In this document: positions 20,718-43,239 of the stretch, in pieces
Layout: the number at the start of each line of letters is the position of its first letter
How positions within the stretch are numbered: position 1 is the stretch's first letter
Assembly: GCA_039028155.1 (NCBI GenBank)
Contig: JBCCIS010000006.1
Span: 74,225 to 138,224 of the forward strand
Source: Pseudomonadota bacterium
Lineage (GTDB): Bacteria; Pseudomonadota; Alphaproteobacteria; SP197
Direction: 5' to 3'
DNA length: 64,000 nt
Notes under the pieces: generated by a model
What the model was told of the DNA's origin: nothing
Seen by the model: only the letters and a program-made list of their open reading frames with translations
Databases searched by the model: none
Program-made: the position numbers and the translations under genes

Positions 20718-21803
20718 TCAGGCATTGAAAGCTGGCCGGTAATCGACGTCGTAATTAAAGGCGCGAGGACCGACCAGCGCCAGGCCCTCCGGTGTCGAGA
20801 GGACCGGCGGTGCCGGCAGCGCAATCACCGCGATGCGCTGGCCGTAACGCAGTGTTTCCGTACCCACCGCTTCGCCGGTTTCGCTGTCCATCAGGCAGAT
20901 GATGTCGGGTACCATGACCGTCGCCTCGCCGTCGCGTCGGCCGATCAGGTATTCGTTCTGAAAGTCGACCTCGAACGTCGCGCCGTGGTCACCATCCAGC
21001 CCTTCCAGGCGCGCCGAGCCGCGCAGAAAACCAGCCGTGGTCCGGCGGTCGACGTCCTGGACTTTGCCGGTGAACATCAACCGCCCGCCTTCGCCTTCGA
21101 GGACGGCGGCGACGGGGTCGACGTGACGCGCGCGGGCATCGTGGACCGTTCGTCCAAGATTGATGGCGCGCGTGACCGAATAGAGGATGCCACAGTCCTT
21201 CACCTCGCGGCCGGTGCGCGGCGCCTTGGCGGTCGGCGCGGTGCTGCCCAACGCGGTGCATACGGCGCGACTGGTACGTTCGACCCATTTGGGGTTCTCA
21301 GCCTGTTGCACGATCACCGCATTGCCGCGGATGTCGCCCAGCGCCATCGGGTACATCTTGAGGCCATGGATGGCGAAGCTGGTCATCTGGGCTTCGGGAA
21401 AGGCGCGGCCCATGGCATCGGCGTCGACAACCGGGATGTCGAGCTGGGAGGCGACCAACATCGGCTCAAGCCCGTTGCCGCCACCGATTTCGACGGGCAT
21501 CACGGCGTTAAAACTGCGGCCCAGATAGTCCTGCATGGCGATGACAGGTTTGACCGACAGTGTCGGGTCGGTCAGCCGTTCCTGGCCGACCAACGGTGCG
21601 CCCATGGTCGAGACGACAGCGATCAGGTCGTCATCATCGAGCGCCATGGGATCCAGCAACGTGACCCGCGTGCCGTCGCGATAGAGGCGCTGAAGATTGA
21701 GGTAGCCGTCATAAGGACTGCCGCCGCCGCCCGCGCCCAGAATCCAAGCGCCTGTCGCCAGCGGTTCCAGTTCTTCCGGTTCGATTAAACGCGAGGACGT
21801 CAT
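20718..21803 (-). CDS. DUF917 domain protein (S-methyl thiohydantoin desulfurase-like family)
   Basis: 361 aa. DUF917 hallmarks: GAWILGAGGGGSPYDGYL near the N-terminus, MPVEIGGGNGLEPM, PVVDADAMGRAFPE, and the C-terminal VMVPDIICLMDSETGEAV. The family is often found next to hydantoinase genes and includes thiohydantoin desulfurases. Here it overlaps the proline iminopeptidase gene by 4 nt (shared ATGA), so the two are translated together. The activity is inferred only at family level. Confidence 0.88.
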   Translation of the reverse strand: MTSSRLIEPEELEPLATGAWILGAGGGGSPYDGYLNLQRLYRDGTRVTLLDPMALDDDDLIAVVSTMGAPLVGQERLTDPTLSVKPVIAMQDYLGRSFNAVMPVEIGGGNGLEPMLVASQLDIPVVDADAMGRAFPEAQMTSFAIHGLKMYPMALGDIRGNAVIVQQAENPKWVERTSRAVCTALGSTAPTAKAPRTGREVKDCGILYSVTRAINLGRTVHDARARHVDPVAAVLEGEGGRLMFTGKVQDVDRRTTAGFLRGSARLEGLDGDHGATFEVDFQNEYLIGRRDGEATVMVPDIICLMDSETGEAVGTETLRYGQRIAVIALPAPPVLSTPEGLALVGPRAFNYDVDYRPAFNA

Positions 21804-22864: not shown

Positions 22865-24316
22865 ATGAGCGAGACGACTGTTATCCGTGGAATCGATTGG
22901 CTGGTCGCGTGGGATAAGACCGATGCACGCCATGTCTATCTGCGTAGCGCCGATCTCGCCTTCTCCGGCGGCGCCGTCACCTTCGTCGGTAAGGGATATG
23001 ACGGTCCCGCCGAGATTGAGATTGATGGCGCCGGACGCATGGTGATGCCCGGTCTGGTCAACGTCCACAGCCACCCGACCAGCGAGACCATGCGCAAGGG
23101 CGTGACCGACGAGACCCATTCGCCGGGGTTCTGGCACAGCTCGCTCTATGAGCACCTGCCGGTGTTCGATCCCGCCGATGACGAAGGACGCATGGCATGT
23201 CTAAAGGTCGCGCTGGCGGAGCTGCTGTTGTCGGGCGTGACCACGGTGGTCGATCTGTCGGCGGCCTTCGACGGCTGGCTCGATGCGCTTGCCGAAAGCG
23301 GCATCCGCGCCGTCGCCGCGCCTTTCTTCCGCGACGCCCGCTGGTACACGTCCGACGGCTATAAGCTGCAGTATGACTGGGACGAGAAGGCCGGGCGCGA
23401 ACGGTTCGACGCCGCCTGCCGGGTGATCGAGCTGGCGCGACAGCATCCCTCGGGCCGGCTCGACGGCATGCTGTCGCCTTCCCAGGTCGATACCTGCGGC
23501 GAATCGCTGCTGCGCGACAGCCACGCCTATGCCACCGAGCGCAATCTTCCCTGGACCATTCATGCCGCGCAGTCGGTGACCGAGTTTCTGGAGATGCAGC
23601 GCCGCCACGGCAAGACGCCGATCCAGTGGATGGCCGATATGGGCGTCCTGGACGAGCGCAGCATCATCGCCCATTGCATATTCCTGGATCACCATCCCTG
23701 GCTGCACTGGTCGTCCAACCGCGATCTCGACCTGATGGCCGAGCGCGGCGCGACGGTCGCCCACTGCCCGACCGTCTTCTCGCGGCGCGGCATTACGCTG
23801 CGGACCTTCGGCGAATACGTCCGCCGCGGCGTCAACATGGGCATCGGCACCGACACCTATCCGCACAACATGTTGGAGGAAATGCGCACGGCCGCGGTCG
23901 CCGCGCGCGTCATCGGCGAGAGCGTCGCCGACCTCGACTACCTCGACGTCTTCAATGCTGCGACCTCCGGCGGCGCCAGGGCGCTACGCCGTGACGACAT
24001 CGGCCGTTTGGCGCCGGGCGCACGCGCTGACTTCGTCGTCGTCGACCTCGAACACCCGGCGATGATGCCGGTGCGCGAGCCGCTTCGCAGCCTGCTGGTC
24101 GTCGCCGCCGAACGCGCGGTGCGCGATGTCTATGTCGACGGCGAGGCGGTGGTGCGCGACGGCAAGCTGACAACCATCGATCTGGCCGCGGAGTCCGAAC
24201 GCCTGCAGCGCGCCCAGGCGCGTATGCTGGAGCGGGTGTCGGAGCTCGACTGGGCGGGCCGCACGGCCGATGAGATGGCGCCGATGATGCTGCCCACCCG
24301 TGAAGCCGTGTGTTGA
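22865..24316 (+). CDS. Amidohydrolase-superfamily deaminase/chlorohydrolase (TrzA/SsnA type)
   Basis: 483 aa from ATG at 22865 (GGGAGA upstream). Metal ligands: HSHPTS in VNVHSHPTSETM, HAAQ (residue about 238) and an HC segment IIAHCIFLDHH. The catalytic Asp is in GIGTDTYPHNMLEEM. The C-terminal beta-sandwich closes with RLAPGARADFVVVDLEHPAM. Family members deaminate or dechlorinate N-heterocycles (guanine, triazines, 5'-deoxyadenosine). It is divergent from pip-DUF917, with a 108-nt shared promoter region. The substrate is not identified. Confidence 0.88.
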   Translation: MSETTVIRGIDWLVAWDKTDARHVYLRSADLAFSGGAVTFVGKGYDGPAEIEIDGAGRMVMPGLVNVHSHPTSETMRKGVTDETHSPGFWHSSLYEHLPVFDPADDEGRMACLKVALAELLLSGVTTVVDLSAAFDGWLDALAESGIRAVAAPFFRDARWYTSDGYKLQYDWDEKAGRERFDAACRVIELARQHPSGRLDGMLSPSQVDTCGESLLRDSHAYATERNLPWTIHAAQSVTEFLEMQRRHGKTPIQWMADMGVLDERSIIAHCIFLDHHPWLHWSSNRDLDLMAERGATVAHCPTVFSRRGITLRTFGEYVRRGVNMGIGTDTYPHNMLEEMRTAAVAARVIGESVADLDYLDVFNAATSGGARALRRDDIGRLAPGARADFVVVDLEHPAMMPVREPLRSLLVVAAERAVRDVYVDGEAVVRDGKLTTIDLAAESERLQRAQARMLERVSELDWAGRTADEMAPMMLPTREAVC

Positions 24317-24370: not shown

Positions 24371-25579
24371 ATGGTGAGGTTGGCGGATCTCCACGCCGAT
24401 ATGAGAGACTTTCTGATCGATCATCCGGTGCCGGATATCGAGATGGAACCCTGGACAGAACCGGCGCCTGCCGGCGATCGGCGCGTTGCGCTGGTTTCCT
24501 CGGCCGGTTTGAAACTGAAGAGCGATCAGCCGTTCGCGGCCGACGCGGCGGACTATCGGGTGATCCCGGCGGACAAGGTCGATGATGTCGTCATGGACCA
24601 CGTCTCGACCAGTCATGACCGCACGGGCTTTCATCAGGACGTGAACATCGCGTTCCCGTTGCACCGGCTGAACGAGCTGGCGGATGACGGCGCGATCGGT
24701 TCGGTGGCGGATTTCCATTATTCGTTCATGGGCGCGACCGACCCGAAACTGATGGAATCGGCGGTCCGCGATCTCGCGGGCATCCTGAAAGCTGACGGCG
24801 TTAACACGGTTGTTCTGGCCCCCGTTTGACCCCTTTGCACGTGCGCCGTTGGCGGACTGGCGAAGTATCTGGAAGACGAGGGCCTGGCGACGGTGATTGT
24901 CGCGCTGGTGCGCGAGCATGCCGAAACGCTCAGACCGCCGCGCACGCTCTGGGTGCCGTTCCCACTGGGCCGGCCGTTCGGTGTGCCGAACAACCCGGCG
25001 TTCCAGACCAAAGTGCTGAAGGCCGCGCTCGACCTGTTCGAGGTGCCGGAAGGACCGGTGCTGGCAGACTTCCCCGAAGAAGCCCCGGAAGAAGTTGCCG
25101 ACGAAGCGATGGAAAGCTGGGTCTGTCCGGTGAGCTTCCCGAAGCCGCCGGTGCCGGAGGACCGGACCGGCCTTCGTGAAGCGGTGCTGGCGGAAATCGG
25201 CCAACTGCAGCCGTGGTACGAGGTTGGCCGCGACCGGCGCGGCCGCACGGCCGTTGGCTTAAGCGGTCTCGCCATGAACGATGCCGCCCGGTTCCTGGAC
25301 GGCTGGCTCGCAGGGGAAACCCGCGAGAGCCCGATCAAGACCGTCGGGAGCGCCGATGCCTTGCGCCTTTCGGCGGAGGATCTGAAGGCATTTTACATGG
25401 AGGCCGCGACCGCGCGGCCGGGCGTGGTCGGTCAGAAGGAACTCTCCGATTGGCTGTGGCAAGAGACGTCGTTGGCCGAGATGCTGCAATCCCTGCGCAA
25501 GACTTTGTTGCAGGAAGAGGATCCCGAGCTCTTCGACGTCGGCGAGTTCATGTTGGTGCCGGAGACGTACCACGCTTGA
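24371..25579 (+). CDS. Selenoprotein of the glycine/sarcosine/betaine reductase B (GrdB-like) family, Sec153
   Basis: 402 aa if the in-frame TGA at 24827-24829 is read as selenocysteine at position 153. Before it the protein reads FHYSFMGATDP...GVNTVVLAPV. After it the frame continues PLCTCAVGGLAKYLEDEG and LVREHAETLRPPRTLWVPFPLGRP, both conserved in this family. The Sec-x-x-C-x-C motif is redox-like. Convergent selD, tRNA-Sec, selB and selA follow. The family in proteobacteria lacks the other Grd subunits and its reaction is unknown. Standard gene finders would split it into two ORFs (24371-24829 and 24893-25579). Confidence 0.9.
24827..24857 (+). promoter_or_regulatory. Sec-encoding UGA and candidate bacterial SECIS hairpin
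   Basis: The UGA (24827-24829) is followed at 24841-24857 by a short hairpin: GTGCGCC, loop GTT, GGCGGAC, with one G-G mismatch. The loop G is 19 nt past the UGA, in the range used by bacterial SECIS elements. The small loop differs from the E. coli fdhF GGUCU loop. Confidence 0.5.
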
Positions 25580-27755
25580 TCGTGATGCGGCCCTGACCTC
25601 GTCCAACAACACGACCCACGACGCGGGCTGACACATAGCCCGCGTCGTTGAGGTCCTGCAAACACGCAGCGCTTCTGTCACTCGGAATGCCGGCCAGCAG
25701 GCCGCCGGCGGTCTGCGGATCGAACAGGATCGCGTCGGTCATGTCGCTGACGGTTGATGCCGCGGCCTCTTGATTGGCAGGCTGCAAGGTGCTCGCGAAA
25801 CCGCGCGCGAGCAGATCGCGTGCGCCCGCCAGCACCGGCAGCCCATCCAACACAAGCTCGGCGTCGACCGACGACGCCCGCAGCATTTCGCCGAGATGAC
25901 CGGCCAAGCCGAAGCCGGTGACATCTGTAGCTGCCTTTGCGCCATGGGCCCTCAGACAGGTCGCCGCAGCCGCGCTCGACTGCAACATCGAAGCGAGCGC
26001 CGCCTCGATCCAGGCGCTCTGGGCCGCGCCGCGCATGTCGGCGGCGAACAAGACGCCGGTGCCCAATGGTTTGGTCAGGATCAGATCGTCGCCGGGCCGC
26101 AAGCCGCCTTTCGTCAAGAGAGCGTCCGGCCGCGCAAAGCCAGTCAGCGACAGGCCAAACGTGAACTCCTGAGCCTCGCTGGTGTGGCCGCCTGCAAGCG
26201 CGCAGCCTTCAGCGTTCAAAACCTCAAGCGCGCCGGAGAGCACCTGGACCAGATCCGATTCCATGCGCCCGGGGTCGGCGAACGGCAGGCCCACAAGCGC
26301 TAAGGCGACGGCGGGTGTCGCGCCCATGGCATGCAGGTCGCCCAGGCTATGAACCGCCATCAGCCGACCGAACAAGTGGGGGTCGTCAACCAGGGCACGG
26401 AACTGGTCAACGGTCTGCACCGCAACCTGGCCATCGGGCGGTGTGAAGACAGCGGCATCATCCGGTGCGTCGAGCCCAGCGAGCAGCGCCGAGTCGGCTT
26501 TGACATCCAGGCGCTGGAGCGCGCGGTCCAGGACAGGTGCTGGAGCCTTGGCGCCGCAGCCGCCGCAACGCATGGGATCGGTTGGGTCCTCGGGCATCGG
26601 CTCGATGTCCTGGTAGACCGCCATCCAGCGTCGGTCGATGTGGTCTTTCCAGCGCCACACCCAGGCGCCTTCGACCGCGAGCGGACCCCAGGACGCGACG
26701 GCGTTCTGATCGCCGGTCGAGATCAGCGCCAGCGTGCGGCCCTGTGGGCGATAGGGTCGGGGCCGCATGCCACGCGCCATAAGTCTCAGATTCTCGGCCA
26801 GCACCGGCCCCTTGCGCACGGCATAGACGCCGCTCTTGGCGAGCGGCTGGCTGGTGAACGCGGCGACATCGCCGGCTGCGAAGACGGCGGGTTGGGAGAC
26901 GGTTTGCAGGGTCGGTCCTACCTTGATGAAACCGCTGTCGTCCAGGTCGAGTCCGGTCGATGCCAACCACGGATGGGCGGCGGCATGGGTCACCAGGACG
27001 GCGGCGTCGCTGGCGATCTCCTCGTGGGGATCGCAGACGACGCGGTCATCGTGAAACGCGACGACCCTGTGTCCGGTGACGATGGTGATGTTGCGCTTAC
27101 CCAGCGCGCGAATCATCGCGCGGCGCACCGGTATGGCATGCTGATGCAGGACGGTATCGCGATCAGTAACGACGGTGACGGCAACGCGGTCGGGGTCGCC
27201 GCCTCGTTCGGTGAGGTGGCGGCGCAGCCGATGACGAAGGGAAAGTGCCACCTCGACGCCGCCAGCACCGCCGCCGACCACGGTCAGGCGGAATGGTCCG
27301 GTGGTCTCCGACACGCGCGCTTCGACGCTTTGCCAACGGGTCAGGAACTTGTCGACCGGCTTGACCGGGACTGCGTGGTCGTCGGCACCCGCGATACCCA
27401 ACGTGGTGGGCACGGAACCGACATCGATCGAGGCGAGATCATAGGGGATCGGCGGGCGCCCTTCGATGGCGACCGTGCGCGCGCCAGGATCAAGGCCCGT
27501 CGCCGGGGCATGGATCAGCCGGGCGCGCGCCATTCGCGCCAGGGGGCGCAGATCAATGTGGCAGGCGGCATGGTCGTAGTGACCGGCCAGGTAGCCTGGC
27601 AGCATGCCGGAGTACGGCGTGAACGTGTCGCGCGCGATGATCGTCAGCCGCACGCCGGGTTCCGGCTCCATGGCGAAACGGCGGATCACTTCGACATGGG
27701 CGTGACCGCCGCCGATCAGAACGATGTCGCAGGTGACCGGCTCAGAAGGGGTCAT
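25548..27755 (-). CDS. selD: Selenide water dikinase SelD with N-terminal NADH-dehydrogenase-like FAD domain
   Basis: 735 aa from ATG at 27755 (an ATG at 27773 abuts the tRNA end). The N-terminal half is a type II NADH dehydrogenase-like flavoprotein: IVLIGGGHAHVEV, TVVGGGAGGVEVALSLR, and AVFAAGDVAAF. The C-terminal half (from about residue 395) is SelD, which makes selenophosphate from selenide and ATP. Its catalytic site is CGGCGAK with Cys and Lys but no Sec, and QTVDQFRALVDDPHLFGR follows. The fusion suggests coupled reduction of selenium before phosphorylation. The 3' end overlaps the selenoprotein gene by 32 nt. Confidence 0.92.
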   Translation of the reverse strand: MTPSEPVTCDIVLIGGGHAHVEVIRRFAMEPEPGVRLTIIARDTFTPYSGMLPGYLAGHYDHAACHIDLRPLARMARARLIHAPATGLDPGARTVAIEGRPPIPYDLASIDVGSVPTTLGIAGADDHAVPVKPVDKFLTRWQSVEARVSETTGPFRLTVVGGGAGGVEVALSLRHRLRRHLTERGGDPDRVAVTVVTDRDTVLHQHAIPVRRAMIRALGKRNITIVTGHRVVAFHDDRVVCDPHEEIASDAAVLVTHAAAHPWLASTGLDLDDSGFIKVGPTLQTVSQPAVFAAGDVAAFTSQPLAKSGVYAVRKGPVLAENLRLMARGMRPRPYRPQGRTLALISTGDQNAVASWGPLAVEGAWVWRWKDHIDRRWMAVYQDIEPMPEDPTDPMRCGGCGAKAPAPVLDRALQRLDVKADSALLAGLDAPDDAAVFTPPDGQVAVQTVDQFRALVDDPHLFGRLMAVHSLGDLHAMGATPAVALALVGLPFADPGRMESDLVQVLSGALEVLNAEGCALAGGHTSEAQEFTFGLSLTGFARPDALLTKGGLRPGDDLILTKPLGTGVLFAADMRGAAQSAWIEAALASMLQSSAAAATCLRAHGAKAATDVTGFGLAGHLGEMLRASSVDAELVLDGLPVLAGARDLLARGFASTLQPANQEAAASTVSDMTDAILFDPQTAGGLLAGIPSDRSAACLQDLNDAGYVSARVVGRVVGRGQGRITIKRGTSPAPT

Positions 27756-27773
27756 GAGCTCGCGCGGCGGCAA

Positions 27774-27868
27774 TGGCGGAAAGGGGTGGGAGTCGAACCC
27801 ACCAGACCCGTTGAACGCGTCTCACCGGTTTTGAAGACCGGGCGCATCACCGGATGCGACCCCTTTCC
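27774..27868 (-). tRNA. selC: tRNA-Sec (anticodon UCA)
   Basis: 95 nt with an encoded CCA end. The 8-bp acceptor stem GGAAAGGG pairs with CCCTTTCC, discriminator base G. The anticodon loop CTTCAAA gives UCA, there is a long variable arm, and the T loop is GGTTCGACT. These are tRNA-Sec features. It is only 18 nt from the likely selD start and on the same strand, and is followed upstream by benE, so it may be processed from a sel operon transcript. Confidence 0.95.
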
Positions 27869-27879
27869 ATAATGTCGTC

Positions 27880-29049
27880 TCATGCCTTGCCGCGCCGCCA
27901 GCGCGCCAGACCCATCACCGCGCCTCCGGCGAGCAGGCCCCAGAACGCACCGCTGATCCCGAAGAACGTCAGGCCGGAGGCAGTGACCAGGAAGGTTACG
28001 ATCGCGGCTTCCCGGTCCTTGGCATCGCTGAACGCGTTGACCAGGGACATGCCGAGCGCGCCCAGAAGCGCAAGGCCGGCAACCGCCTGGATCAGAAGCG
28101 GCGGCGCGACGGCGATGAACGCGGTTGCGGCGCCCGCGATCAACCCGAAGAACACATAGCCAACACCGGCGACAACCGCCGCCCAGTATCGCCGCGCCGG
28201 ATCGCTATGGGCGTTCTCGCCGGCGCAGAGCGCCGCGGTAATCGCCGCCAGATTGACGGCATGGCCGCCGAATGGCGCGGAGAACAAACTGAACAAGCCG
28301 GTGGTCGCGAACAGCGGACTGGGGTTGGGCTGATAATTGTTGGCGTGCAACACCGCCATGCCCGGGATGTTTTGCGACGCCATGGTCACGATAAAGAGCG
28401 GCAGGGCGATGCCGATCATGGCCTCGGGCGAGAAGGCCGGCATGACCAGGATCGGATCGGGCCACAGCGCGTTCATTTTCATCGCCGACATGTCGGTGGT
28501 CGTGGCGATGATGACGGCGGTTATGACGACGGCGGCGGGCACCGCATAGATCCGCGTGAAGCGCGCCATAACCGCCCACACGATGATGATGGGCAGCGCG
28601 AGCAGCGGCAGTTCGGCGACCGCCTTGACCGGTGCCAGGCAAAGACCAAGCAGCACGCCGGCCAGAAGTGCGTTGGCCAGCGGCGCGGGGATCGCGGCGA
28701 CCCAGCGTCCAAGCGGCTTCCACAGTCCGGCGATCACCAGCAGCACGCCGGTCACGATGAAGGCGCCAACCGCCGCGGCGAAACCGCCCTCCACGGCGCC
28801 GGAGGTCGCCAGCAGCGCCGCGCCCGGCGTCGACCAGGCAACCGAGATCGGCAGCTTTAACTTGAGGCTCAACCAGATGGCGCACAGGCCCATGGAGATG
28901 GAGAGCGCGATCAGGCCGGATGCGGCCTCGGCCTGACTGGCGCCGGCGGCCGTCAGGCCCTGAAGCACGACGGCGAACGAGCTGGCGAAGCCGACAAACG
29001 AGGCGAGCAGACCGGCGCTGAGCGCCTGAATGGAAAACGACTTAAGCAT
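27880..29049 (-). CDS. BenE-family (benzoate:H+ symporter-like) membrane transporter inside the sel operon
   Basis: 389 aa from ATG at 29049, which overlaps the selB stop by 8 nt; the longer frame to 29124 is inside selB. About 11-12 transmembrane helices; family motif SVAWSTPGAALLA (about residue 65-78), plus MASQNIPGMAVLHANNY and FGGHAVNLAAITAALCAGENAH. BenE proteins import benzoate. Its tight coupling to selB and position next to selC and selD suggest a role linked to selenium supply, which is inference. Confidence 0.9.
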   Translation of the reverse strand: MLKSFSIQALSAGLLASFVGFASSFAVVLQGLTAAGASQAEAASGLIALSISMGLCAIWLSLKLKLPISVAWSTPGAALLATSGAVEGGFAAAVGAFIVTGVLLVIAGLWKPLGRWVAAIPAPLANALLAGVLLGLCLAPVKAVAELPLLALPIIIVWAVMARFTRIYAVPAAVVITAVIIATTTDMSAMKMNALWPDPILVMPAFSPEAMIGIALPLFIVTMASQNIPGMAVLHANNYQPNPSPLFATTGLFSLFSAPFGGHAVNLAAITAALCAGENAHSDPARRYWAAVVAGVGYVFFGLIAGAATAFIAVAPPLLIQAVAGLALLGALGMSLVNAFSDAKDREAAIVTFLVTASGLTFFGISGAFWGLLAGGAVMGLARWRRGKA

Positions 29050-30984
29050 GGGCACGGTCTTTGTCTGGTGATAATTCCGCACCGAAGACGTCGGCGGCGG
29101 AGCGGCGCAGGCTGCGCCGCGCACCCTGTCTAAGGGTTAGCCCGGCGCGGTCAAGAAACTCGAGGAGGTCGATCGCGAAGTTGCGTCCGACGCCCGCCGC
29201 GTCGCGAAAGCTTGCGGCGGTCAGGCCGGGCTCGTCATTGGATGCGAGTTGTTCGGCGACACGGCCATAACGGGCGGCGTCTTCTGGCGTCAGGTAACGG
29301 TTGCGCGCGATACGCATGACAAGCCCCATGCCGGCAAGCCTGCCGAGAAACCGGTCGAGGGTTTCCGGTTCGCTGCCAATCGTTTCCGCAAGCTGCCACA
29401 ACGCCGGCGGACTACCCTGGTCTGGTGAGAGGTGGGCGCGGACCTGCTGCCACAGCGCCTCGTCCTTGGCATTGAGCCTGACGTCGTGACCGGGTTTGTG
29501 CACGACCATGCCACGGCGTTGTAGGCGTCCTTCGCCGACCAGGGCGGCCAAGACCTCCTGCAACAGATTGCGGTCCTGGCCCCAAGCGGCGGCGCGGCGC
29601 AATTCTTCCAGTGTCGGGCCGAGTCGGTCGAGATGCTCGCCGTGCCATCGGCCGACCGCATGTTCGACTGTCTCGAGCAGGGCGGCCCAGCGCACGGGGG
29701 AAAGGCCGACTGCATCATCGCCGCGTCCGGTGATCGTGAGATCGGCTTTGGCAAAGAGTGTAGCCGCTTCGTCCTCCGTCAGGTTGCGACTGCGCCGAAA
29801 CGCCTCCAGCGCGACGCCCGATCCCGGCAGGTCGAGCCGAGCGGCCAGCGCGGCTGCGTCATCGCGGCGGTCAAGGGCTTCGAGCACGGCGATGCGCCCC
29901 GGGCGCGCGCGGCCACGCGCCGGCCCGGCGGGATCGATGACCCGGCCGCCGCCCAGGGTTCGCTGCGCCGACTGATCACGCAGTACGACCGCATCGCCAC
30001 TTGCCGCGACCGCCGGCGTGTCGAGCACGAGCTGCGCGAGGCCCATTTCACCCGGCGCGATCGACCCTGCGCCGATCACCGCGACATGGCCGTGCAGATG
30101 GGCCGCGCCGTGGTGGACATGAACGGGTGTCCAATGCTTCAGCGGGTTGCCTTCGCTCGCGAGCACGCGAAGGCGGATGTCGAGACGGCGCGATGGCGGT
30201 GGTGCGCCCGACGCGACGATCCAATCGCCGCGCGCGACCTCGTCGCGTTCGACACCGGCAAGATTGAGGGCGCAGCGCCAACCCGCCCGCGCCTCGTCCG
30301 ACGGTCGATCCTGTGCGTGAATGCCGCGCAGCCTGACTTCGCGCATGGCAGGCACGACATTGAGGCGGTCGCCTGCCGCGGCGTGGCCAGAGAAGACCGT
30401 ACCGGTCACGACCGTGCCGGCGCCGGGGATGGTGAAGCTGCGATCGACGGCCAGGCGGAAGGTGCCGGTGCTAGCGCGCCTGGAAAGATTGACGGCGAGG
30501 GTCTCTAAATGAGCGCGCAGGTCGTCGATACCGGTGCCGGCCAATGCCGCGGCCGGAAACACTGGACTGCCAGCGAGATGCGTGTCGGCCAACAACGCGC
30601 GGATGTCGTTCTCGACCGATGCAACCCGGTTGCTTTCGACAAGGTCGGTCTTGGTCAAGGCAACCAGGCCGTCCTTAACGCCTAGCAGATCGAGCACGGC
30701 GAGGTGTTCGATGGTCTGCGGCATGATGCCGTCGTCAGCGGCGACAACCAGGAGCGCGATGTCGATACCGGCGACGCCCGCCACCATGTTGCGCAGGAAC
30801 TTCTCGTGGCCGGGCACGTCGATGAAACCGAGGACCGTACCGTCGGCGAGCGGCAGATAGGCGAAGCCCAGATCGATGGTCAGCCCGCGTTTCTTTTCTT
30901 CCGGCAGCCGGTCGGTCTCGACGCCCGTCAATGCGTGGATCAGCGCCGTCTTGCCGTGGTCCACATGGCCGGCGGTCGCGACGA

Positions 30985-30988
<4 letters not shown>
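29042..30988 (-). CDS. selB: Selenocysteine-specific elongation factor SelB
   Basis: 648 aa. GTPase motifs: [16 protein letters not shown] (G1), [15 protein letters not shown] (G3), and TKTDLV as the NKxD-like G4. EF-Tu-like domains II and III follow, then a C-terminal set of winged-helix domains (about 400-640) that bind [47 protein letters not shown]. It delivers Sec-tRNA to UGA codons. Its start overlaps the selA stop by 4 nt. Confidence 0.95.
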
Positions 30989-32394
<1,406 letters not shown>

Positions 32395-32537
32395 ACGGTG
32401 TCGCTGGCGGCAGTCTAGCCGGCGCGTGACCGTCCCGAAAGGGCTGTGGACGATGATCATCGGGACGTGATCAGGCGTCATGGTCGCCGAAGATCGGGGT
32501 GGCGGGGCGCGCTTCCGGTGCTAGTCTCGCCGCCGTC

Positions 32538-35581: not shown

Positions 35582-35713
35582 ACGGAAGTTCTGAGTTGAT
35601 GGTCGCACGAACCGGCGACATGCTGAGAAATTCGTCGCATGCGACAGTCTGTCACAAAAGCTGGGCTTAACGAAACCTATGCCGCCACAAGCGCCCCGTC
35701 AGAGGACATTGAG

Positions 35714-36829
35714 GTGACGACACTGAATTTTCGGCCAGTCGAGCTGCCGTTGGATGCCTATCGCAGCGACGACTTCGCTGCGCTGGAAAACGAAAGGCTG
35801 TTCTCGAAGTCGTGGATTCACGTGGCAAGCGGCCATGAATTGCCTGAGGCCGGCGACTGCCACCCGATCACGCTGGCCGGTCTGCCGCTGGTTCTGGTGC
35901 GTCAGCGCTCAGGCGATATCGCGGCGTTCCACAACGTCTGCCGTCATCGCGGCGCGCGCCTGGTGCGCGAAGCCTGCAACGCCAAGGCGGTGATGACCTG
36001 CCCCTATCACGGCTGGGCCTATGGCCTGGATGGCGAGTTGCGCTCGACACCTTACTGGGACCCCCAGGACGGCACGGGGCCTGAGGACTTCGAGAAGGCC
36101 GCCTTTGGCCTCAATCCGGTACGCTCGGCGGTCTGGTGCGATCAGGTCTTTGTGTGCCTCGATGACGATGGCCCCAACTTCGAGCAACACATCGCGCCCT
36201 TGGCGCGGCGCTGGTCCCATGCGGATCTGTCACTGCTTCGGTTTGGCGGCTCGCTGTCTTATGACCTCGAGGTCAACTGGAAACTCATCATCGAGAATTA
36301 TCTCGACACCTATCACCTGCCGTTCATTCATACCCAGCTCGGCCCGCTTGAAGCGGCGCAGAACTTCGTCGATTTCGATGAGGTCGGACGCGTCTTCGGC
36401 ATTCACTATCTCTCCGGCGCCGCCGATAAGAACAAGGGCGATACCGGGTTCCATACGTTTCCCGGTTTTGAAGGTGACCAGCTCAAGAACCAGGATATCT
36501 CGATGCTGTTCCCCAACACGCTGCTGGAGTTCATGCCCGAACACATCATGTTCTTCCGGGTTGAACCGGTTTCGCCGACGCGCACGCGGGAGCTTTTGAG
36601 TTTCTACTATCTGGGCGACGATGCCGATGATCCGGATCTCGAGGAAGGCCGCCGCATGACCCATCAGGCATGGGACACAATCAATCGTCAGGACTTCGAC
36701 GTGCTCGCCGATCTGCAGGCGACGATGCACTCGCCGGCGGCACGCGGCTTGCCTCCGCCGGCACCGGGCTGGGAGATTTCGCAGGCGCGGTTCCGGCGTC
36801 GCGTTGCCGAGGAGCTTGACCTTGTCTGA
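35714..36829 (+). CDS. Rieske [2Fe-2S] ring-hydroxylating oxygenase alpha subunit (terminal oxygenase)
   Basis: 371 aa from GTG at 35714, which has AGAGG eight bases upstream; an ATG at 35639 would add 25 residues with a poorer site. The Rieske cluster is in CRHRGARLV (C-x-H) and CPYHGWAYG (C-x2-H). The mononuclear iron site is in ENYLDTYHLPFIH, with a C-terminal Asp/Glu ligand. The sequence resembles those of the carnitine/glycine-betaine-type and stachydrine demethylases as well as aromatic dioxygenases. No ferredoxin or reductase gene is adjacent. It starts the plus-strand catabolic cluster. Confidence 0.88.
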   Translation: MTTLNFRPVELPLDAYRSDDFAALENERLFSKSWIHVASGHELPEAGDCHPITLAGLPLVLVRQRSGDIAAFHNVCRHRGARLVREACNAKAVMTCPYHGWAYGLDGELRSTPYWDPQDGTGPEDFEKAAFGLNPVRSAVWCDQVFVCLDDDGPNFEQHIAPLARRWSHADLSLLRFGGSLSYDLEVNWKLIIENYLDTYHLPFIHTQLGPLEAAQNFVDFDEVGRVFGIHYLSGAADKNKGDTGFHTFPGFEGDQLKNQDISMLFPNTLLEFMPEHIMFFRVEPVSPTRTRELLSFYYLGDDADDPDLEEGRRMTHQAWDTINRQDFDVLADLQATMHSPAARGLPPPAPGWEISQARFRRRVAEELDLV

Positions 36830-37757
36830 CCCGTCATTGCCCTTCGACCGTGTTTGCGTCACCGGCGGAAGCGGCCTGCTGGGACGTTTCGTCGTGCGCG
36901 AACTCGCGCGCGATGCCGAGGTCCTGGTCATGGATATCGCTCCGCCGGTCGACGAGGGGTTCGCGTTCGCGAACGTTGATGTGCTCGACATCGATGCGGT
37001 CACCGCCGCACTCAAGGGCCAGCAGGCCGTGGTCCATTTGGCGGCGCTTGACGACGGTGTCGCCGATAACGAAGAGGACTACATCAAGGTCAACATTCAG
37101 GGGACCTGGAACGTGCTGCAGGCCGCCGAAGAATTGGGCCTGGAGCGTGCGGTGATTTGTTCCAGCACCGCCGCGGTCGGCTTGTCGTCAGATAACCCGC
37201 CGGCCTACCTGCCCGTCGATGTCGCACATCCCGCCGTGCCGACCGGGGCCTATGGTCTGAGCAAACGCACGATCGAATTGCTGGCCCAGGGCATCGTGAA
37301 GCGCGGTAAGTTGGAGGTGGTGTGCCTGCGCCCCTGTCTGGTGGCTCAAGCCGACATCGTCTACAGCATGGCCGGGATCGTTGCCGAGACCGATGGTCTG
37401 GAACCGCCGCCTCCGGCGACGGGCGCAGCCTGGCGGGAGTTGCGCGAAGGCGTATCGCCGACCCGCGCGTTTGTCTCGCCCAGCGATGTCGCGCGCGCCT
37501 TCCGCGCCGCGCTCGCCGCGCCCGGACTTCGTTATGGCGTCTACTTCGTTACGTCCAGCGACACCTGCACGCGCCTGCCGACGGTCGAGGCGGTTGAACG
37601 CGGCTGCGGTGTCGTGCCTGACCTCAAACATGCGGCGACCTACGCCAACGACCCGCGCGCCAGCGCCTATGACATAGCCTCGACGCGCGAGGCGTTGGGA
37701 TGGGAACCCAACGATACCTGGGAAGACTATCTCGCCCAGGTCATCCAGGCGGGGTGA
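36822..37757 (+). CDS. NAD-dependent epimerase/dehydratase (extended SDR)
   Basis: 311 aa from TTG at 36822, which overlaps the Rieske stop by 8 nt and has GAGGAG upstream. Nucleotide motif VCVTGGSGLLGRFV (TGxxGxxG), Asp in MDIAPP binding the adenosine ribose, and the catalytic SxnYxxxK-like segment SSTAAVGL...TGAYGLSKRTIELL with YGLSK. The fold is like UDP-glucose 4-epimerase or 3-beta-HSD relatives, but the substrate is not identified. Co-transcribed with the oxygenase and downstream amidohydrolase. Confidence 0.88.
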   Translation: MSDPSLPFDRVCVTGGSGLLGRFVVRELARDAEVLVMDIAPPVDEGFAFANVDVLDIDAVTAALKGQQAVVHLAALDDGVADNEEDYIKVNIQGTWNVLQAAEELGLERAVICSSTAAVGLSSDNPPAYLPVDVAHPAVPTGAYGLSKRTIELLAQGIVKRGKLEVVCLRPCLVAQADIVYSMAGIVAETDGLEPPPPATGAAWRELREGVSPTRAFVSPSDVARAFRAALAAPGLRYGVYFVTSSDTCTRLPTVEAVERGCGVVPDLKHAATYANDPRASAYDIASTREALGWEPNDTWEDYLAQVIQAG

Positions 37758-37761
37758 GCGG

Positions 37762-39273
37762 ATGAGTCTCGAACGTCCTCTCGTCCTGCGCGGCGGCCGG
37801 CTTCTGGATATCGACGGCCATGACGCGCCGTTGCGCGATGTGCTGATCGGCGTGGACGGCCGTATTGCCGCGATCGGCGACCCCGGTATGGCCGTGCCCG
37901 AGGATGCCGAAGAACATCGCGCTGACGGCACGATGATGATGCCCGGCATGATAAACGCCCACACCCACGGCCACGGCAGCTTTGGCAAAGGCCGGGGTGA
38001 TCAGTGGTCGCTGGAACTGTTGTTGAACGCGGGCCCGTGGATCAGTGGCGGGCGCAACGATGAGGACCGCTATCTGGCGACGCTGTTGAACGCCGCAGAT
38101 ATGATCCGGCGCGGCGCGACGGGGGTCTATGACCTCACCTGGGAGCAGCCCCGGCCGACGGTCGACGGCATGCATGCGGTGGCGCGCGCCTATGACGACA
38201 TTGGCATGCGCGCCTTGATCACGCCGATGATGGCGGACCTGTCGTTCTACGACATCGTTCCCGGTTTGCGCGACAGCCTGCCGGACGGCCTGCGCCAGGA
38301 GGTCGACAAACTCGCGCTCGATCCGTTCCAGGCCGCTCTTGATGCCTGCCGTGATCTCCTGAAGTCCTGGCCGTTCGATACCGACCGCCTGCGCTTCGGT
38401 ATCGCGCCGACCATTCCCATGCACTGCACGGACGAGTTCTTGGTCGCCTGCAAGAACCTGTCCGACGAGTTCGCGTGTCCGGTGCACACGCATATGGCCG
38501 AGTCGAAACTGCAGGCGCTTGCCGGGCGCGAACACTATGGCAAGACGCTGCTCGCCCACTTCGATGGCCTCGGCCTGGTGACCGAACGTTTCACCGCCGG
38601 GCACGGTGTCTGGCTTGACGGCGATGACATGAAACGCATGGCCGATCGCGGTGCGTCGGTCGCCCACAACCCCGGCAGCAATTTGCGTTTGGGTTCCGGC
38701 ATTGCCGCGGTACGCGAGATGCTGGATGCCGGCGTCAATGTCGGCGTCGGCACCGACGGGTCGAACTCGTCGGATAACCAGAACATGTTCGAGGCGACGC
38801 GTCTGGCAGCCTATGTGTCGCGCGCCATGACCCACGATCTCCGGCAGTGGGTGTCGTCGGCCGAGGCGCTGACCATGGCGACCGCCGGCAGCGCGCGGAC
38901 CATCGGCATGCAGGACGATACGGGACGGCTGGAGACGGGCTATGCCGCCGACATCGTGTTCCTGGATCTCTCCGACATCACCTACGTGCCGCTGAACGAT
39001 CCGGTCAATCAGATCGTCTATGCCGATGACGGCGCCGCCGTGCAGTCTGTTTTGATCGGCGGCAAGTTCGTCTATCAGAACCGCCAGTTCACGACGATCG
39101 ATGAAGACAAGCTGAAACGCGGCGTAGAAAGCGCCATGGAACGGCTTAACGCGGTAACGGCTGAACGCAAGGAACTGGTCCAGGCGCTGGAACCGTTGGT
39201 CGCCGATCACTGCATCTGCTTTTCAAGCCGGCCCTATCATGTGCATCGCATGGTGCCGCCGACATCGTGTTGA
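37762..39273 (+). CDS. Amidohydrolase-superfamily deaminase (guanine deaminase/SsnA-like)
   Basis: 503 aa. HxH metal motif His67/His69 in MINAHTHGHGSF; second His in VHTHMAESK; His in TAGHGVWLDGDD; catalytic Asp in GVGTDGSNSSDNQNM. Beta-sandwich closure LETGYAADIVFLDL. The family deaminates or hydrolyses cyclic amidines and purine-like rings. It lies 4 nt after the epimerase in the cluster leading to a hydantoinase, so the substrate is probably an N-heterocycle. Confidence 0.88.
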   Translation: MSLERPLVLRGGRLLDIDGHDAPLRDVLIGVDGRIAAIGDPGMAVPEDAEEHRADGTMMMPGMINAHTHGHGSFGKGRGDQWSLELLLNAGPWISGGRNDEDRYLATLLNAADMIRRGATGVYDLTWEQPRPTVDGMHAVARAYDDIGMRALITPMMADLSFYDIVPGLRDSLPDGLRQEVDKLALDPFQAALDACRDLLKSWPFDTDRLRFGIAPTIPMHCTDEFLVACKNLSDEFACPVHTHMAESKLQALAGREHYGKTLLAHFDGLGLVTERFTAGHGVWLDGDDMKRMADRGASVAHNPGSNLRLGSGIAAVREMLDAGVNVGVGTDGSNSSDNQNMFEATRLAAYVSRAMTHDLRQWVSSAEALTMATAGSARTIGMQDDTGRLETGYAADIVFLDLSDITYVPLNDPVNQIVYADDGAAVQSVLIGGKFVYQNRQFTTIDEDKLKRGVESAMERLNAVTAERKELVQALEPLVADHCICFSSRPYHVHRMVPPTSC

Positions 39274-39337
39274 TGTGCCGTTGATGCCGAAGCGGGCGAA
39301 GACCTGCTAGGCTATTGTTCGATTGGAGGAGAGAACC

Positions 39338-40678
39338 ATGAGGTTCGACTTGGTCATTGCTGGCGATCTCGTGTTGCCCGATGGCGTTAAGGAAAACGGC
39401 TGGGTCGCCGTGACGGGCGGCAAGATTGCCGCGATCGGCGAAGGCGACATGCCTGATGCCGGCGAACACGTCACCGCCGATGGCCTCGTCTTTCCCGGCA
39501 TTGTCGACGGCCAGACCCATGCCGGATCGATCGCCGGTTTCCCCGGCCTGGAGGATCTCACCCGCAGTGCGGCGGCGGGTGGCGTCACGACCATCGTCGA
39601 CATGCCGTTCGATTCGCCTGATCCCGTAACGACGGGCGCGCTGCTGGCCGAAAAGGCGGCGACCGCGGACAAGGTCGCCTATTGTGATGTTGCGATCTAT
39701 GGCGGCGTGAAGCCGGATGTCGACACCGACGAAATTGCGCGCCAGACCGATGCCGGCGCCTGTGCGTTCAAGATGTCGACCTATCATGCCAGTGCGCGCT
39801 TCCCGCGCATTCCCCATCACCAGATGGAGCGTGCGTTCGCCGCCATCGCCGAGACCGGGTTGACCGTTGCCGTGCACAACGAAGATCAGGAGATCGTTGA
39901 CGACGCGATCGCGCGGTTCCAGGAGGCCGGCCAGAAGGGCGCGAACCAACACCATCCGTCGCGACCACCGCTGTCGGAGCTGCTGGCCAACAGCATCATC
40001 CTGGAAATCGGCGTGGCGACTGGCGCGCGCGCGCACATCGTGCATTCCTCGCTGGCGCGCGGTTTCGACATGGCCCGCAGCTATCGCGACCAGGGCTGTC
40101 ACGCGACGGCCGAGACCTGCCTGCACTACCTGATCTTCGACGAAGACGATGTCATCGAGATGGGCGCGCGCGGCAAGGTGAACCCGCCAATCAGGCCCGA
40201 TCAGAAAGAGCTGATCTGGCAGCATATCCTGGACGGCGAGGTTGCTTTCGTGTCCTCGGACCATTGCTCGTGGCCGCTTGAGCGAAAGCCGGACGACGAC
40301 ATCTTTCAGGCCGCGCCCGGCGCGCCCGGTATCGAATGCCTGTTTCCGGTCATGGCCGATGAAGCAATCATCCGCCGCGGTCATGATGTGGGCGTGGTCG
40401 CCGACATGCTGTGCGAGGCGCCGGCCCGTCACTTCGGTCTCTACCCGCAGAAAGGTGCGATCAGGGTCGGCAGCGATGCCGATTTCGCCATCCTGCGCCG
40501 CGAGCGACACACGGTGGATGAGACGAAACTGCATTGTGAGCTCGCGCCCTGGACGATCTATCATGGCCGAGAACTCGATTTCCGAGTCGGTGATGTCTGG
40601 CTGCGCGGCACCAAGGTCTTTGATGGCGAGACCATGACGGCGCCCGCGGGCACAGGCCGTTTTGTCAGACCGTCGTGA
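39338..40678 (+). CDS. Hydantoinase/dihydropyrimidinase-type cyclic amidohydrolase with QxH metal motif
   Basis: 446 aa from ATG at 39338 (GGAGGAGAG upstream). It resembles D-hydantoinases, allantoinases and dihydropyrimidinases. The usual HxH is Gln59-Thr-His61 (DGQTHAG). Other residues fit the family: Lys145 (FKMS, likely carbamylated), His180 (VHNE), His236 (VHSS), Asp308 (SSDHC). The Gln variant could alter one metal ligand. It is followed by hydantoin racemase and a carbamoylase-like enzyme, so ring opening of a hydantoin-like compound is the likely step. Confidence 0.85.
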   Translation: MRFDLVIAGDLVLPDGVKENGWVAVTGGKIAAIGEGDMPDAGEHVTADGLVFPGIVDGQTHAGSIAGFPGLEDLTRSAAAGGVTTIVDMPFDSPDPVTTGALLAEKAATADKVAYCDVAIYGGVKPDVDTDEIARQTDAGACAFKMSTYHASARFPRIPHHQMERAFAAIAETGLTVAVHNEDQEIVDDAIARFQEAGQKGANQHHPSRPPLSELLANSIILEIGVATGARAHIVHSSLARGFDMARSYRDQGCHATAETCLHYLIFDEDDVIEMGARGKVNPPIRPDQKELIWQHILDGEVAFVSSDHCSWPLERKPDDDIFQAAPGAPGIECLFPVMADEAIIRRGHDVGVVADMLCEAPARHFGLYPQKGAIRVGSDADFAILRRERHTVDETKLHCELAPWTIYHGRELDFRVGDVWLRGTKVFDGETMTAPAGTGRFVRPS

Positions 40679-40685
40679 GGGTCCC

Positions 40686-41348
40686 ATGAGCGAACGTATT
40701 CTGGTCATCAACCCCAACAGCAGCGAGGATGTCACCCAGCGCATGTCAGCGGCGCTGGACGGGCTGCGCTTCGAGGACGGTCCGGTTGTCGACTGCATGA
40801 CCCTGGCCGAAGGACCGCCGGGGATCGAGACCGACCGGCATATCGCCGAGGTCACCGGACCGATCACCGCGACCGTCGAGCGCGAGCAGAACCAGACGTC
40901 GGCTTTCGTCATCGCCTGCTTTTCCGATCCCGGCATCCATGCCGCGCGCGAAGCGAGCCGGGTGCCGGTCTTCGGCATCGGCGAGAGTGGCTATGCGACC
41001 GCGCTGACGCGCGGCGACCGCTTTGGCGTCATTTCGATCCTGTCGCGGTCGGTGGCGCGTCACCGCCGGCAGATCGCGTCTCTCGGTCTGCTCGATCGGT
41101 TGGGTGGCGATATCGCGATCGAGCTTGGCGTGACGGAACTGCATCAGGGCGACAAGGTGCGCGGGCGCATGACCGAGGTGGGGACCGAACTGCGCGACGG
41201 CCATGGATGCGATGTTCTGGTCATGGGCTGTGCCGGTATGGCGCAGTACCGTGCGGGTTTGGAGACGGACCTGGGGATCCCGGTCATTGATCCGACACAG
41301 GCCGCGACAACATTGGCAATTGGCGCCGTGCAGGCGGCACGGCAGTAA
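40686..41348 (+). CDS. Asp/Glu/hydantoin racemase family protein
   Basis: 220 aa. N-terminal ILVINPNSSEDVTQRM is typical of HyuA-type hydantoin racemases; the two catalytic Cys regions are AFVIACFSDPGI (Cys about 79) and DVLVMGCAGMAQY (Cys about 182). It racemises 5-substituted hydantoins so that both enantiomers feed the hydantoinase. It follows the hydantoinase with a 7-nt gap. Confidence 0.9.
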   Translation: MSERILVINPNSSEDVTQRMSAALDGLRFEDGPVVDCMTLAEGPPGIETDRHIAEVTGPITATVEREQNQTSAFVIACFSDPGIHAAREASRVPVFGIGESGYATALTRGDRFGVISILSRSVARHRRQIASLGLLDRLGGDIAIELGVTELHQGDKVRGRMTEVGTELRDGHGCDVLVMGCAGMAQYRAGLETDLGIPVIDPTQAATTLAIGAVQAARQ

Positions 41349-41360
41349 GGAGACGATTGT

Positions 41361-42296
41361 ATGGCTTCACGGGTTCTGACGGTTGGCGGCGCACAGCTTG
41401 GACCGATCCAACGAGCGGAGACCAAAGCTTCCGCCGTGGCCAGGCTGGTCGACCTGATGCGCCAGGCGGCGGGACGCGGCTGCGACCTCGTGGTCTACCC
41501 CGAGCTTGCGCTGACGACCTTTTTCCCGCGCTGGCTGATCGAGGACAAGGCGGAGCTCGACGCCTGCTTCGAGGCCACCATGCCGAACGCCGATGTCCAG
41601 CCGCTGTTCGACACGGCCAAGGAGCTCGGCATCGGTTTTCATCTGGGCTATGCGGAGATTGCCGGCGAGCATCGCTTCAACACTGCGATCCTGGTCGACA
41701 AGAAAGGTGAGATCGTCGCCAAGTACCGCAAGATCCATCTGCCCGGCCACGCCGAATTCGAGGCGGACCGCGACTTCCAGCATCTGGAGAAGCGCTATTT
41801 CGAGGTCGGCGATCTCGGCTTTCCGGTGTGGGAGGTCATGGGCGGCAAGATCGGCATGCTGATCTGCAACGATCGGCGCTGGCCCGAAGCCTTCCGCACG
41901 CTGGGCCTGCAGGGCGTTGAGCTGGTGATGATCGGCTACAACACGCCGACGCTGAACGGTCAGACCTTCGAGCCGCCACATCTGCGCGCCTATCACAACA
42001 CGCTTTCCATGCTGGCGGGCGCCTATCAGAACGCCACCTGGGTCGCCTGCATCGCCAAGGCAGGCCGCGAGGACGGCTTTGACCTGATGGGCGGCAGCGC
42101 CATCGTCTCGCCCAATGGCGAGATCGCCGCCCAGGCCGTGACGCTGGAAGATGAACTGATCGTCGCCGACTGTGATCTCGACGCCGGCAACTACCTGAAG
42201 AGCAGCGTCTTCAATTTCGCCGCCCATCGCCGGCCGGAACACTACGGCCTGATTGTCGAGGCAACGGGCGTGGTGCCGCCCAGAGGTGCGCCCTGA
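41361..42296 (+). CDS. N-carbamoyl-D-amino acid hydrolase-like nitrilase
   Basis: 311 aa. Nitrilase superfamily triad: Glu in YPELALTTFF, Lys in YRKIHLPGH, Cys in LICNDRRWPE. The long loop with NTPTLNGQ and HLRAYHNTLSM, and length near 305, match D-carbamoylases. These hydrolyse N-carbamoyl-D-amino acids to D-amino acid, CO2 and ammonia. It completes a hydantoinase-racemase-carbamoylase pathway. Its stop overlaps the next gene. Confidence 0.88.
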   Translation: MASRVLTVGGAQLGPIQRAETKASAVARLVDLMRQAAGRGCDLVVYPELALTTFFPRWLIEDKAELDACFEATMPNADVQPLFDTAKELGIGFHLGYAEIAGEHRFNTAILVDKKGEIVAKYRKIHLPGHAEFEADRDFQHLEKRYFEVGDLGFPVWEVMGGKIGMLICNDRRWPEAFRTLGLQGVELVMIGYNTPTLNGQTFEPPHLRAYHNTLSMLAGAYQNATWVACIAKAGREDGFDLMGGSAIVSPNGEIAAQAVTLEDELIVADCDLDAGNYLKSSVFNFAAHRRPEHYGLIVEATGVVPPRGAP

Positions 42297-43132
42297 TTCG
42301 CCGGATCACCCGTTCTATCCTCGTCTGTCTGGCGCTTGCCGCGCCGGACTGCGCCGAGGCTGACGAGGATGGCCGGGTCGCGGCGACGCGGCTCGCGGAG
42401 ACCAATGGCTGGCAATACCATCGCGTACAGGCCGGCGACTTTCTGCTGACCGCCTACAGCCGGATAACCGACCCCACCGACCAGACGCTCGCGGTCTATA
42501 TCGGCGGTGATGGCGCTGCATGGCCTTCACCGACCCAGCCGCCCACCGACCCGACACCGCGTGTGCCGCGCACGTTCGAACTTGCGGTGCGCGATCCTTC
42601 GCCCAACACCGTCTACATCGCGCGTCCCTGCCAGTTCCTTGATGCCGAGTCACTGGCTGCCTGTTCGTCGGACTACTGGTTCATGGCGCGCTACGCGCCG
42701 GAGGTGGTGGCGTCGATCGATCTGATGGTCGACTACTTTGTCAGGACGACCCGAAGCCAGCAGGTCCGCCTGTTTGGTTTTTCCGGTGGTGGCGTGATTG
42801 CCACACTCGTCGCCGCCAACCGGGATGACGTCACGGGGATTGTGACGGTCGCAGCGAACCTGGACCATGAGACGTGGACGGCGATCCACGGACTTTCGCG
42901 ACTTAGGAACTCATTGAACGCTACCAGTGTCGCCGCCGATCTCGCGTTGGTGCCCCAGGTCCATTTTGTTGGCGCCGACGATACGAACGTGCCGGTCGTT
43001 GTTGCCGAGGCCTACCTCGCGCGCATGCCCGATGACGCACTGACGGAGATCGTCGTGGTCGACGGCATGGCGCACAACTGCTGCTGGGTCGACATCTGGC
43101 CCGATCTGCTAGCGCAGCACGCCCTGGACTGA
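42293..43132 (+). CDS. Secreted alpha/beta hydrolase with non-ATG start
   Basis: 279 aa if CTG at 42293 is used; it overlaps the carbamoylase TGA, with AGAGG 6 nt upstream. The usual ATG/GTG search would start it at 42563 and lose the first 90 residues. The extra part gives a signal peptide (RRITRSILVCLALAAP...CAEA) and a continuous hydrolase N-terminus (LAVYIGGDGAAWPSPTQ). The nucleophile is Ser in FGFSGGGVIATLVAANRDD; the His is in VDGMAHNCCWVDIW. It is periplasmic, possibly an esterase. No domain function beyond the fold is recognised. Confidence 0.72.
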   Translation: MIRRITRSILVCLALAAPDCAEADEDGRVAATRLAETNGWQYHRVQAGDFLLTAYSRITDPTDQTLAVYIGGDGAAWPSPTQPPTDPTPRVPRTFELAVRDPSPNTVYIARPCQFLDAESLAACSSDYWFMARYAPEVVASIDLMVDYFVRTTRSQQVRLFGFSGGGVIATLVAANRDDVTGIVTVAANLDHETWTAIHGLSRLRNSLNATSVAADLALVPQVHFVGADDTNVPVVVAEAYLARMPDDALTEIVVVDGMAHNCCWVDIWPDLLAQHALD

Positions 43133-43239
43133 GGCCATAGTCGGCATGGTGACTGGGGTCACCGAAACGTGTGGTTTGCTGAGCCATCTCAACTTGTTAG
43201 TCTAACTGACTTCTTCTCAAAAACAGGGGGACCCCGCCC

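Follow-up and report, generated by a model that had tools for sequence, protein, structure and literature searches.

PrdB, the selenocysteine (Sec) subunit of D-proline reductase, and GrdB, GrdF and GrdH, the protein B subunits of glycine, sarcosine and betaine reductase, are the described proteins closest to the selenoprotein analyzed here. The proposed mechanism of PrdB and GrdB begins with an attack of the selenolate on the alpha carbon of a carbonyl-bound amine; a cysteine then cleaves the selenoether, which leaves a Se–S bond (PMC10298544). A further GrdB-type Sec protein, FarB, is encoded in the farACEB fluoroacetate reductase operon of Cloacibacillus and has been proposed to cleave the C–F bond (PMC10838667). 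In the Sargasso Sea and GOS metagenome surveys of 2005 and 2008, 'proline reductase PrdB' (UxxC, PF07355) was among the commonest selenoproteins, with counts of 42 genes and of 235 sequences with Sec and 110 with Cys (PMC1088965, PMC2398784), and the PrdB type ranks with the most abundant selenoproteins of ocean metagenomes (PMC2398784). Our literature search found no paper stating a role for PrdB-type selenoproteins outside Stickland fermenters.

A PrdB-like protein, apparently without reductase partners

The prdB-like gene lies in a window of 64,000 nucleotides (the whole stretch of DNA that was analyzed) from an alphaproteobacterium of the order SP197. The features of the locus are collected in Table 1. 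The Sec gene and an ndh-selD fusion are arranged tail to tail, and the Sec machinery (selA, selB, ndh-selD and tRNA-Sec) spans 25548–32481, in agreement with the initial annotation, which had placed it next to the gene. Between selC and selB there is a gene for a BenE-type benzoate/H+ symporter (27880–29124, minus strand), which is retained in the related locus L001 and is not called there in L004.

Table 1. Features of the prdB-like selenoprotein locus (positions within the window).
Feature	Position	Strand	Details
TRZ/ATZ-type amidohydrolase gene	22865..24316	+	55 bp upstream of the Sec gene
prdB-like selenoprotein gene	24371..25579	+	402 aa with Sec153; start ATG 24371, in-frame TGA 24827-24829 (codon 153), stop TGA 25577-25579
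PrdB-like alpha/beta domain	24467..25060	+	residues 33-230; TIGR04483, 103.7 bits; AF2 model, pLDDT 90
Sec153 UGA codon	24827..24829	+	TGA in 74/74 homologues; Cys in two orthologues; aligned with the prdB Sec codon of L110
Outer helix, predicted SECIS	24833..24865	+	24833-24838 pairs with 24860-24865; this form in close relatives only
Upper stem-loop, bacterial SECIS	24841..24857	+	arms 24841-24847 / 24851-24857; loop GUU 24848-24850; covarying pair, fold
C-terminal all-helical domain	25142..25576	+	residues 258-402; beyond the PrdB and GrdB matches; without Pfam match
ndh-selD fusion (selenophosphate synthase)	25548..27773	-	TIGR00476, 287 bits; TIGR03169, 460 bits
selC, tRNA-Sec, anticodon TCA	27774..27868	-	RF01852, 82.4 bits
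selB	29042..30988	-	TIGR00475, 448.6 bits
selA	30985..32481	-	TIGR00474, 583.9 bits

The best NCBIfam model for the Sec protein is PrdB (TIGR04483), at 103.7 bits against a curated cut-off of 300, and the GrdB-type NCBIfam models score 35–48 bits (at most 48.3), with TIGR01917 and TIGR01918 at 35.2 and 41.3 bits and their cut-offs of 602.2 and 65.45 not reached. The only curated cut-off passed is that of Pfam. The GRDB profile (PF07355) matches at 31 bits with a gathering score of 22, a likeness to GrdB, GrdF and GrdH that extends to the UxxC site but, unlike in those proteins, is confined to the final third of the profile (positions 224–345). Judged by profile scores, PrdB is nearer kin than GrdB, and the designation 'GrdB-like' in the initial annotation has to be revised.

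The partner subunits of the known reductases were searched for in 16 genomes of the order. Neither pyruvoyl subunits of the PrdA/GrdE type (PF09338) nor GrdA (PF04723) were found in any of the 16, and no control genome matched either profile; the PF09338 profile detects authentic PrdA at 92.6 bits. Searches by tblastn with PrdA, PrdD and the small CBO2463-type protein matched only two prd-bearing plasmid loci among all loci collected. In L108, a Peptoclostridium plasmid, prdA-, prdD- and GrdE-like sequence absent from the gene table surrounds prdB. These searches support the initial statement that the Sec protein would stand alone, without a glycine or proline reductase complex. True membership of the GrdB or PrdB families was rejected on the scores and on the partners not found in these searches.

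PrdB is a single domain of about 240 aa, whereas the Sec protein, which shares a homologous alpha/beta domain with it (residues 33–223), has an extra C-terminal helical domain. In the AlphaFold2 model (pLDDT 90), the alpha/beta domain extends to about residue 233 and the helical domain starts at 265; modeled alone, the latter has a pLDDT of 93 and matches no Pfam family. A sequence search of the PDB using the alignment A1 profile found no relative at E<=5, and neither the whole model nor the helical domain alone gave a Foldseek match at E<=0.001 (best Z 8.2 and 4.6). The top fold match, an MlrC-type microcystinase (Z 8.2), is near the range of chance.

PrdB belongs to Stickland fermenters, whereas the homologues found here come from Alphaproteobacteria, betaproteobacteria, Desulfobacterota and Chloroflexota. 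Viral contigs contained no homologue. In a phylum-wide sample of very complete genomes, a homologue at E<=1e-40 was found in 1 of 398, the organism's own genome, so that the family appears rare in well-sequenced taxa. Two loci carry the Sec PrdB-like gene as a tandem or near-tandem pair (L027:8001–10573 and L059:8001–10482), each copy with its own TGA. Short paralogues of about 300 aa, which carry either Sec or Cys at this position, are common both in Alphaproteobacteria that have tRNA-Sec and in those that lack it; one of them, on a Roseomonas plasmid (L109:5869–6777), adjoins selO.

Set beside the metagenome 'PrdB' family by its description, with UxxC, PF07355 and marine occurrence in common, the Sec protein very likely belongs to it, together with the shorter paralogues. 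Since 'PrdB' selenoproteins were already catalogued in ocean metagenomes in 2005 and 2008, the protein adds no new kind of selenoprotein. Neighbors, domain layout and a dehalogenase link were not found in the portions of the Sargasso Sea and GOS survey texts available to us (PMC1088965, PMC2398784). What is new is the domain layout, the covariation in the SECIS element, the agreement with SelB across the order and the dehalogenase neighborhoods.

Selenocysteine insertion at codon 153

A GTDB genome scan yielded 71 loci, mostly on MAG contigs, which together with paired copies and the organism's own genome gave 74 aligned sites. The Sec153 codon is TGA at all 74, and the stops at the ends of the homologous genes are mixed (37 TGA, 21 TAG and 11 TAA). 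The site also aligns exactly, in both its Sec and its Cys, with the in-frame TGA and UxxC of prdB from L110, a locus with an annotated prd operon. Two orthologues, whose 39–43% identity extends over almost the entire length, carry Cys in place of Sec (TGC in L096, TGT in L095); their genomes, G151 and G157, contain no tRNA-Sec above 68 bits, tRNA-Sec being called above a score gap near 55–68 bits that parts it from tRNA-Ser-like matches.

The codon is followed by a hairpin with the features of a bacterial SECIS element. An 18-nt spacer separates the UGA from the start of the loop, whose sequence is GUN in nearly all homologues and whose first base is G in 69 of 69. One stem pair, 24842/24856, which joins the first base of codon +5 with the third base of codon +9, covaries: it is U-A in 16 sequences, C-G in 46, G-C in 1, A-U in 1 and U-G in two, and the resulting 66 paired of 69 was matched by none of 10,000 permutations. 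The fold energy is −16.5 kcal/mol (z −2.0). In the Cys orthologue L095, the same pair is C/C and the hairpin has decayed.

Beyond the TGA, substitutions relative to L001 (95% identical) number 11, 7 and 49 at codon positions 1, 2 and 3. Because the changes fall mostly at third positions, the frame remains under selection past the TGA; the coordinates in the initial annotation, which noted an in-frame UGA with family sequence continuing after it, were right. The alternative, in which UGA153 terminates translation after 152 aa or the frame is an artefact, accords with translation table 11, which puts a stop there; set against the invariant TGA, the covarying SECIS, the Cys orthologues and the same-frame selection downstream, this reading is barely credible. 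A stop codon or frameshift in place of Sec was rejected on the invariant TGA, the SECIS covariation and the selection past the TGA. Comparative sequence evidence thus points to Sec insertion at UGA153 as close to certain: SelB and Sec-tRNA would read the codon as Sec, guided by the downstream hairpin.

The site reads PVUPLCTC in the 402-aa protein. Among 63 homologues, U153, C156 and T157 are invariant (UxxCT) and C158 is exchanged for Arg, Ser or Gly in most, so the Sec-x2-C-x-C motif named in the initial annotation shrinks to UxxCT.

Co-occurrence with the Sec trait

Within the order, the TGA homologue and SelB are both present in 14 of 16 genomes and both absent from the other 2; SelB scores above its cut-off in twelve of the 14 and is split by contig ends or frame breaks in two. 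In other Alphaproteobacteria, the sel genes accompany fdoGHI (PMC8124441). Here, no clear Sec formate dehydrogenase was seen among the molybdopterin oxidoreductase (PF00384) matches in the order, which are free of in-frame stops save for one broken piece with two TGA codons. In a class-level sample of 190 genomes, a TGA homologue, whatever its length, was present in 15 of the 24 that have tRNA-Sec vs 1 of the 166 that lack it (Fisher p 3e-15, the genomes not being independent). Ten genomes of the class have a full-length Sec copy, and in 5 of them (G000, G007, G067, G081 and G116) the tRNA-Sec gene is no more than 4 kb away from that copy. One genome (G026, 77% complete) has a TGA homologue and no clear tRNA-Sec, and another (G085, 82% complete) has a TAG within the homologue match; either may reflect an assembly gap or error.

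Because of the order-level match between the protein and the Sec machinery, and because no Sec formate dehydrogenase was found, the Sec trait may be held here by an enzyme other than the textbook one, which makes the order a natural case of this kind. The initial annotation considered the Sec protein a possible reason for keeping the whole sel locus: within the order it could be what keeps it, but to call it 'the reason' goes too far.

Gene neighborhoods and candidate chemistry

In the organism's own clade, a TRZ/ATZ-type amidohydrolase gene lies about 55 bp upstream of the Sec gene, and the two likely share an operon; an amidohydrolase of the deaminase/chlorohydrolase type is directly upstream in most of the loci examined from the order. 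Its best solved-structure matches include an unnamed amidohydrolase, 8-oxoguanine deaminase / hydroxydechloroatrazine ethylaminohydrolase and atrazine chlorohydrolase. Because deaminase and chlorohydrolase are both among these matches, they favor neither activity.

This upstream gene would fit reductive C–N cleavage, with the Sec protein acting as an amine or N-heterocycle reductase like D-proline reductase, the amidohydrolase supplying a deaminated or opened substrate, and the activating carbonyl coming from an unrecognised modification or partner. PrdB is also the closest curated family. Against this, no PF09338 protein was found in the 16 genomes of the order, and no homologue of PrdA, PrdD or CBO2463 lies near any homologue of the Sec protein; we consider C–N cleavage unlikely.

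In six loci (L011, L018, L039, L051, L058 and the truncated L053), the Sec gene is adjoined by a type II haloacid dehalogenase (HAD-II) gene, in every case directly adjacent, on the same strand and about 37–64 bp away. The five full-length HAD-II proteins score 155.9–202.3 bits with TIGR01428, above the cut-off of 125.4. Using these HADs in tblastn, no further HAD-II copy was found in 908 kb of flanks; at the density of the order (0.33 per Mb, taken from Alphaproteobacteria and a rough yardstick for other phyla), the expected number is about 0.3 for the flanks and 0.02 for the adjacent position. The tree places the HAD-II loci in three separate pairs, one each in Desulfobacteraceae, Desulfobulbaceae/Desulfocapsaceae and a betaproteobacterial clade. 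The proteins fall into two subfamilies, near 3um9/1jud and near 7arp/2yml, all of them solved haloacid dehalogenases, and the closest solved structures of both are L-haloacid dehalogenases.

In two further clades (L021/L026 and L064/L071), regulators combining an HTH with MEDS, the DcmR sensory domain, are found near the gene; MEDS domains are also present in regulators unrelated to halogens. FAD disulfide oxidoreductases occur near the gene in L011, L018, L064 and L071 and could serve as reductant for the Sec protein.

We hypothesize that this selenoprotein, which is related to PrdB but would stand alone, carries out reductive cleavage of an activated C–X bond, with halide as the leading candidate for X, and give this reading slightly less than an even chance. 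The chemistry would probably be PrdB-like and proceed without a pyruvoyl partner. By analogy with PrdB and GrdB, the Sec153 selenolate would attack an electrophilic carbon beside a carbonyl and expel the leaving group, Cys156 would next displace the carbon to form a Se–S bond, and a dithiol or a flavin disulfide reductase would reduce this bond again. Substrates that already bear a good leaving group fit best, because no amine-activating pyruvoyl subunit was found. Among them, haloacid-type organohalogens are the leading candidates, favored by HAD-II adjacency in three clades of relatives; in the organism itself, the amidohydrolase probably acts before the Sec protein, making its substrate, or after it, on the product. 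C–X cleavage, halide first, is also favored because organohalides need no pyruvoyl activation and because fluoroacetate provides a precedent (PMC10838667). FarB is alike in being a Sec protein of the GrdB type for which attack on a carbon–halogen bond has been proposed, but its operon belongs to an anaerobe and also encodes FarE and a radical SAM protein, whereas the Sec protein described here lacks a FarE subunit.

Several neighborhoods speak against dehalogenation. HAD-II adjacency is absent from the organism's own clade, where the amidohydrolase takes this place, and from most loci, and other clades have TauD-like dioxygenases or unrelated neighbors; the dioxygenases adjoin the gene in two clades, one of which includes the Cys orthologue L095. 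A broader proposal is that of a cobalamin-free, Sec-dependent family of reductive dehalogenases, in which a stand-alone PrdB-type enzyme would remove halogen from activated organohalogens. Its companions would be hydrolytic haloacid dehalogenases in Desulfobacterota and betaproteobacteria and the TRZ/ATZ amidohydrolase in the organism's own order, where the enzyme would maintain the Sec machinery; we consider this proposal doubtful. With the dehalogenase neighbors, the 'unknown PrdB' gains a limited set of substrates that can be tested.

The UxxC pair is a common redox motif, and the protein might instead be a thiol-peroxidase-like or general redox-repair selenoprotein that shields aerobic cells and has no specific carbon substrate. 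The metagenome surveys class PrdB with thiol-dependent redox proteins (PMC1088965, PMC2398784), and peroxiredoxin-like or CMD-like genes, recognized by eye or through weak matches, lie near some homologues. Yet the kin PrdB and GrdB reduce substrates, the neighbors are mostly catabolic enzymes, and the peroxiredoxin-like genes either are encoded on the other strand or do not directly adjoin the gene, so a purely protective role seems rather improbable.

A DUF917/thiohydantoin desulfurase-like gene (20718–21803, minus strand) near the putative amidohydrolase–Sec operon is kept in L001–L004 and L006. A catabolic cluster nearby (35639–44361, plus strand) includes a GbcA-like Rieske oxygenase (142 bits, below the cut-off), amidohydrolase-like genes at 37762–39273 and 39323–40678, and nitrilase-like and solute-binding genes, most of them assigned by eye.
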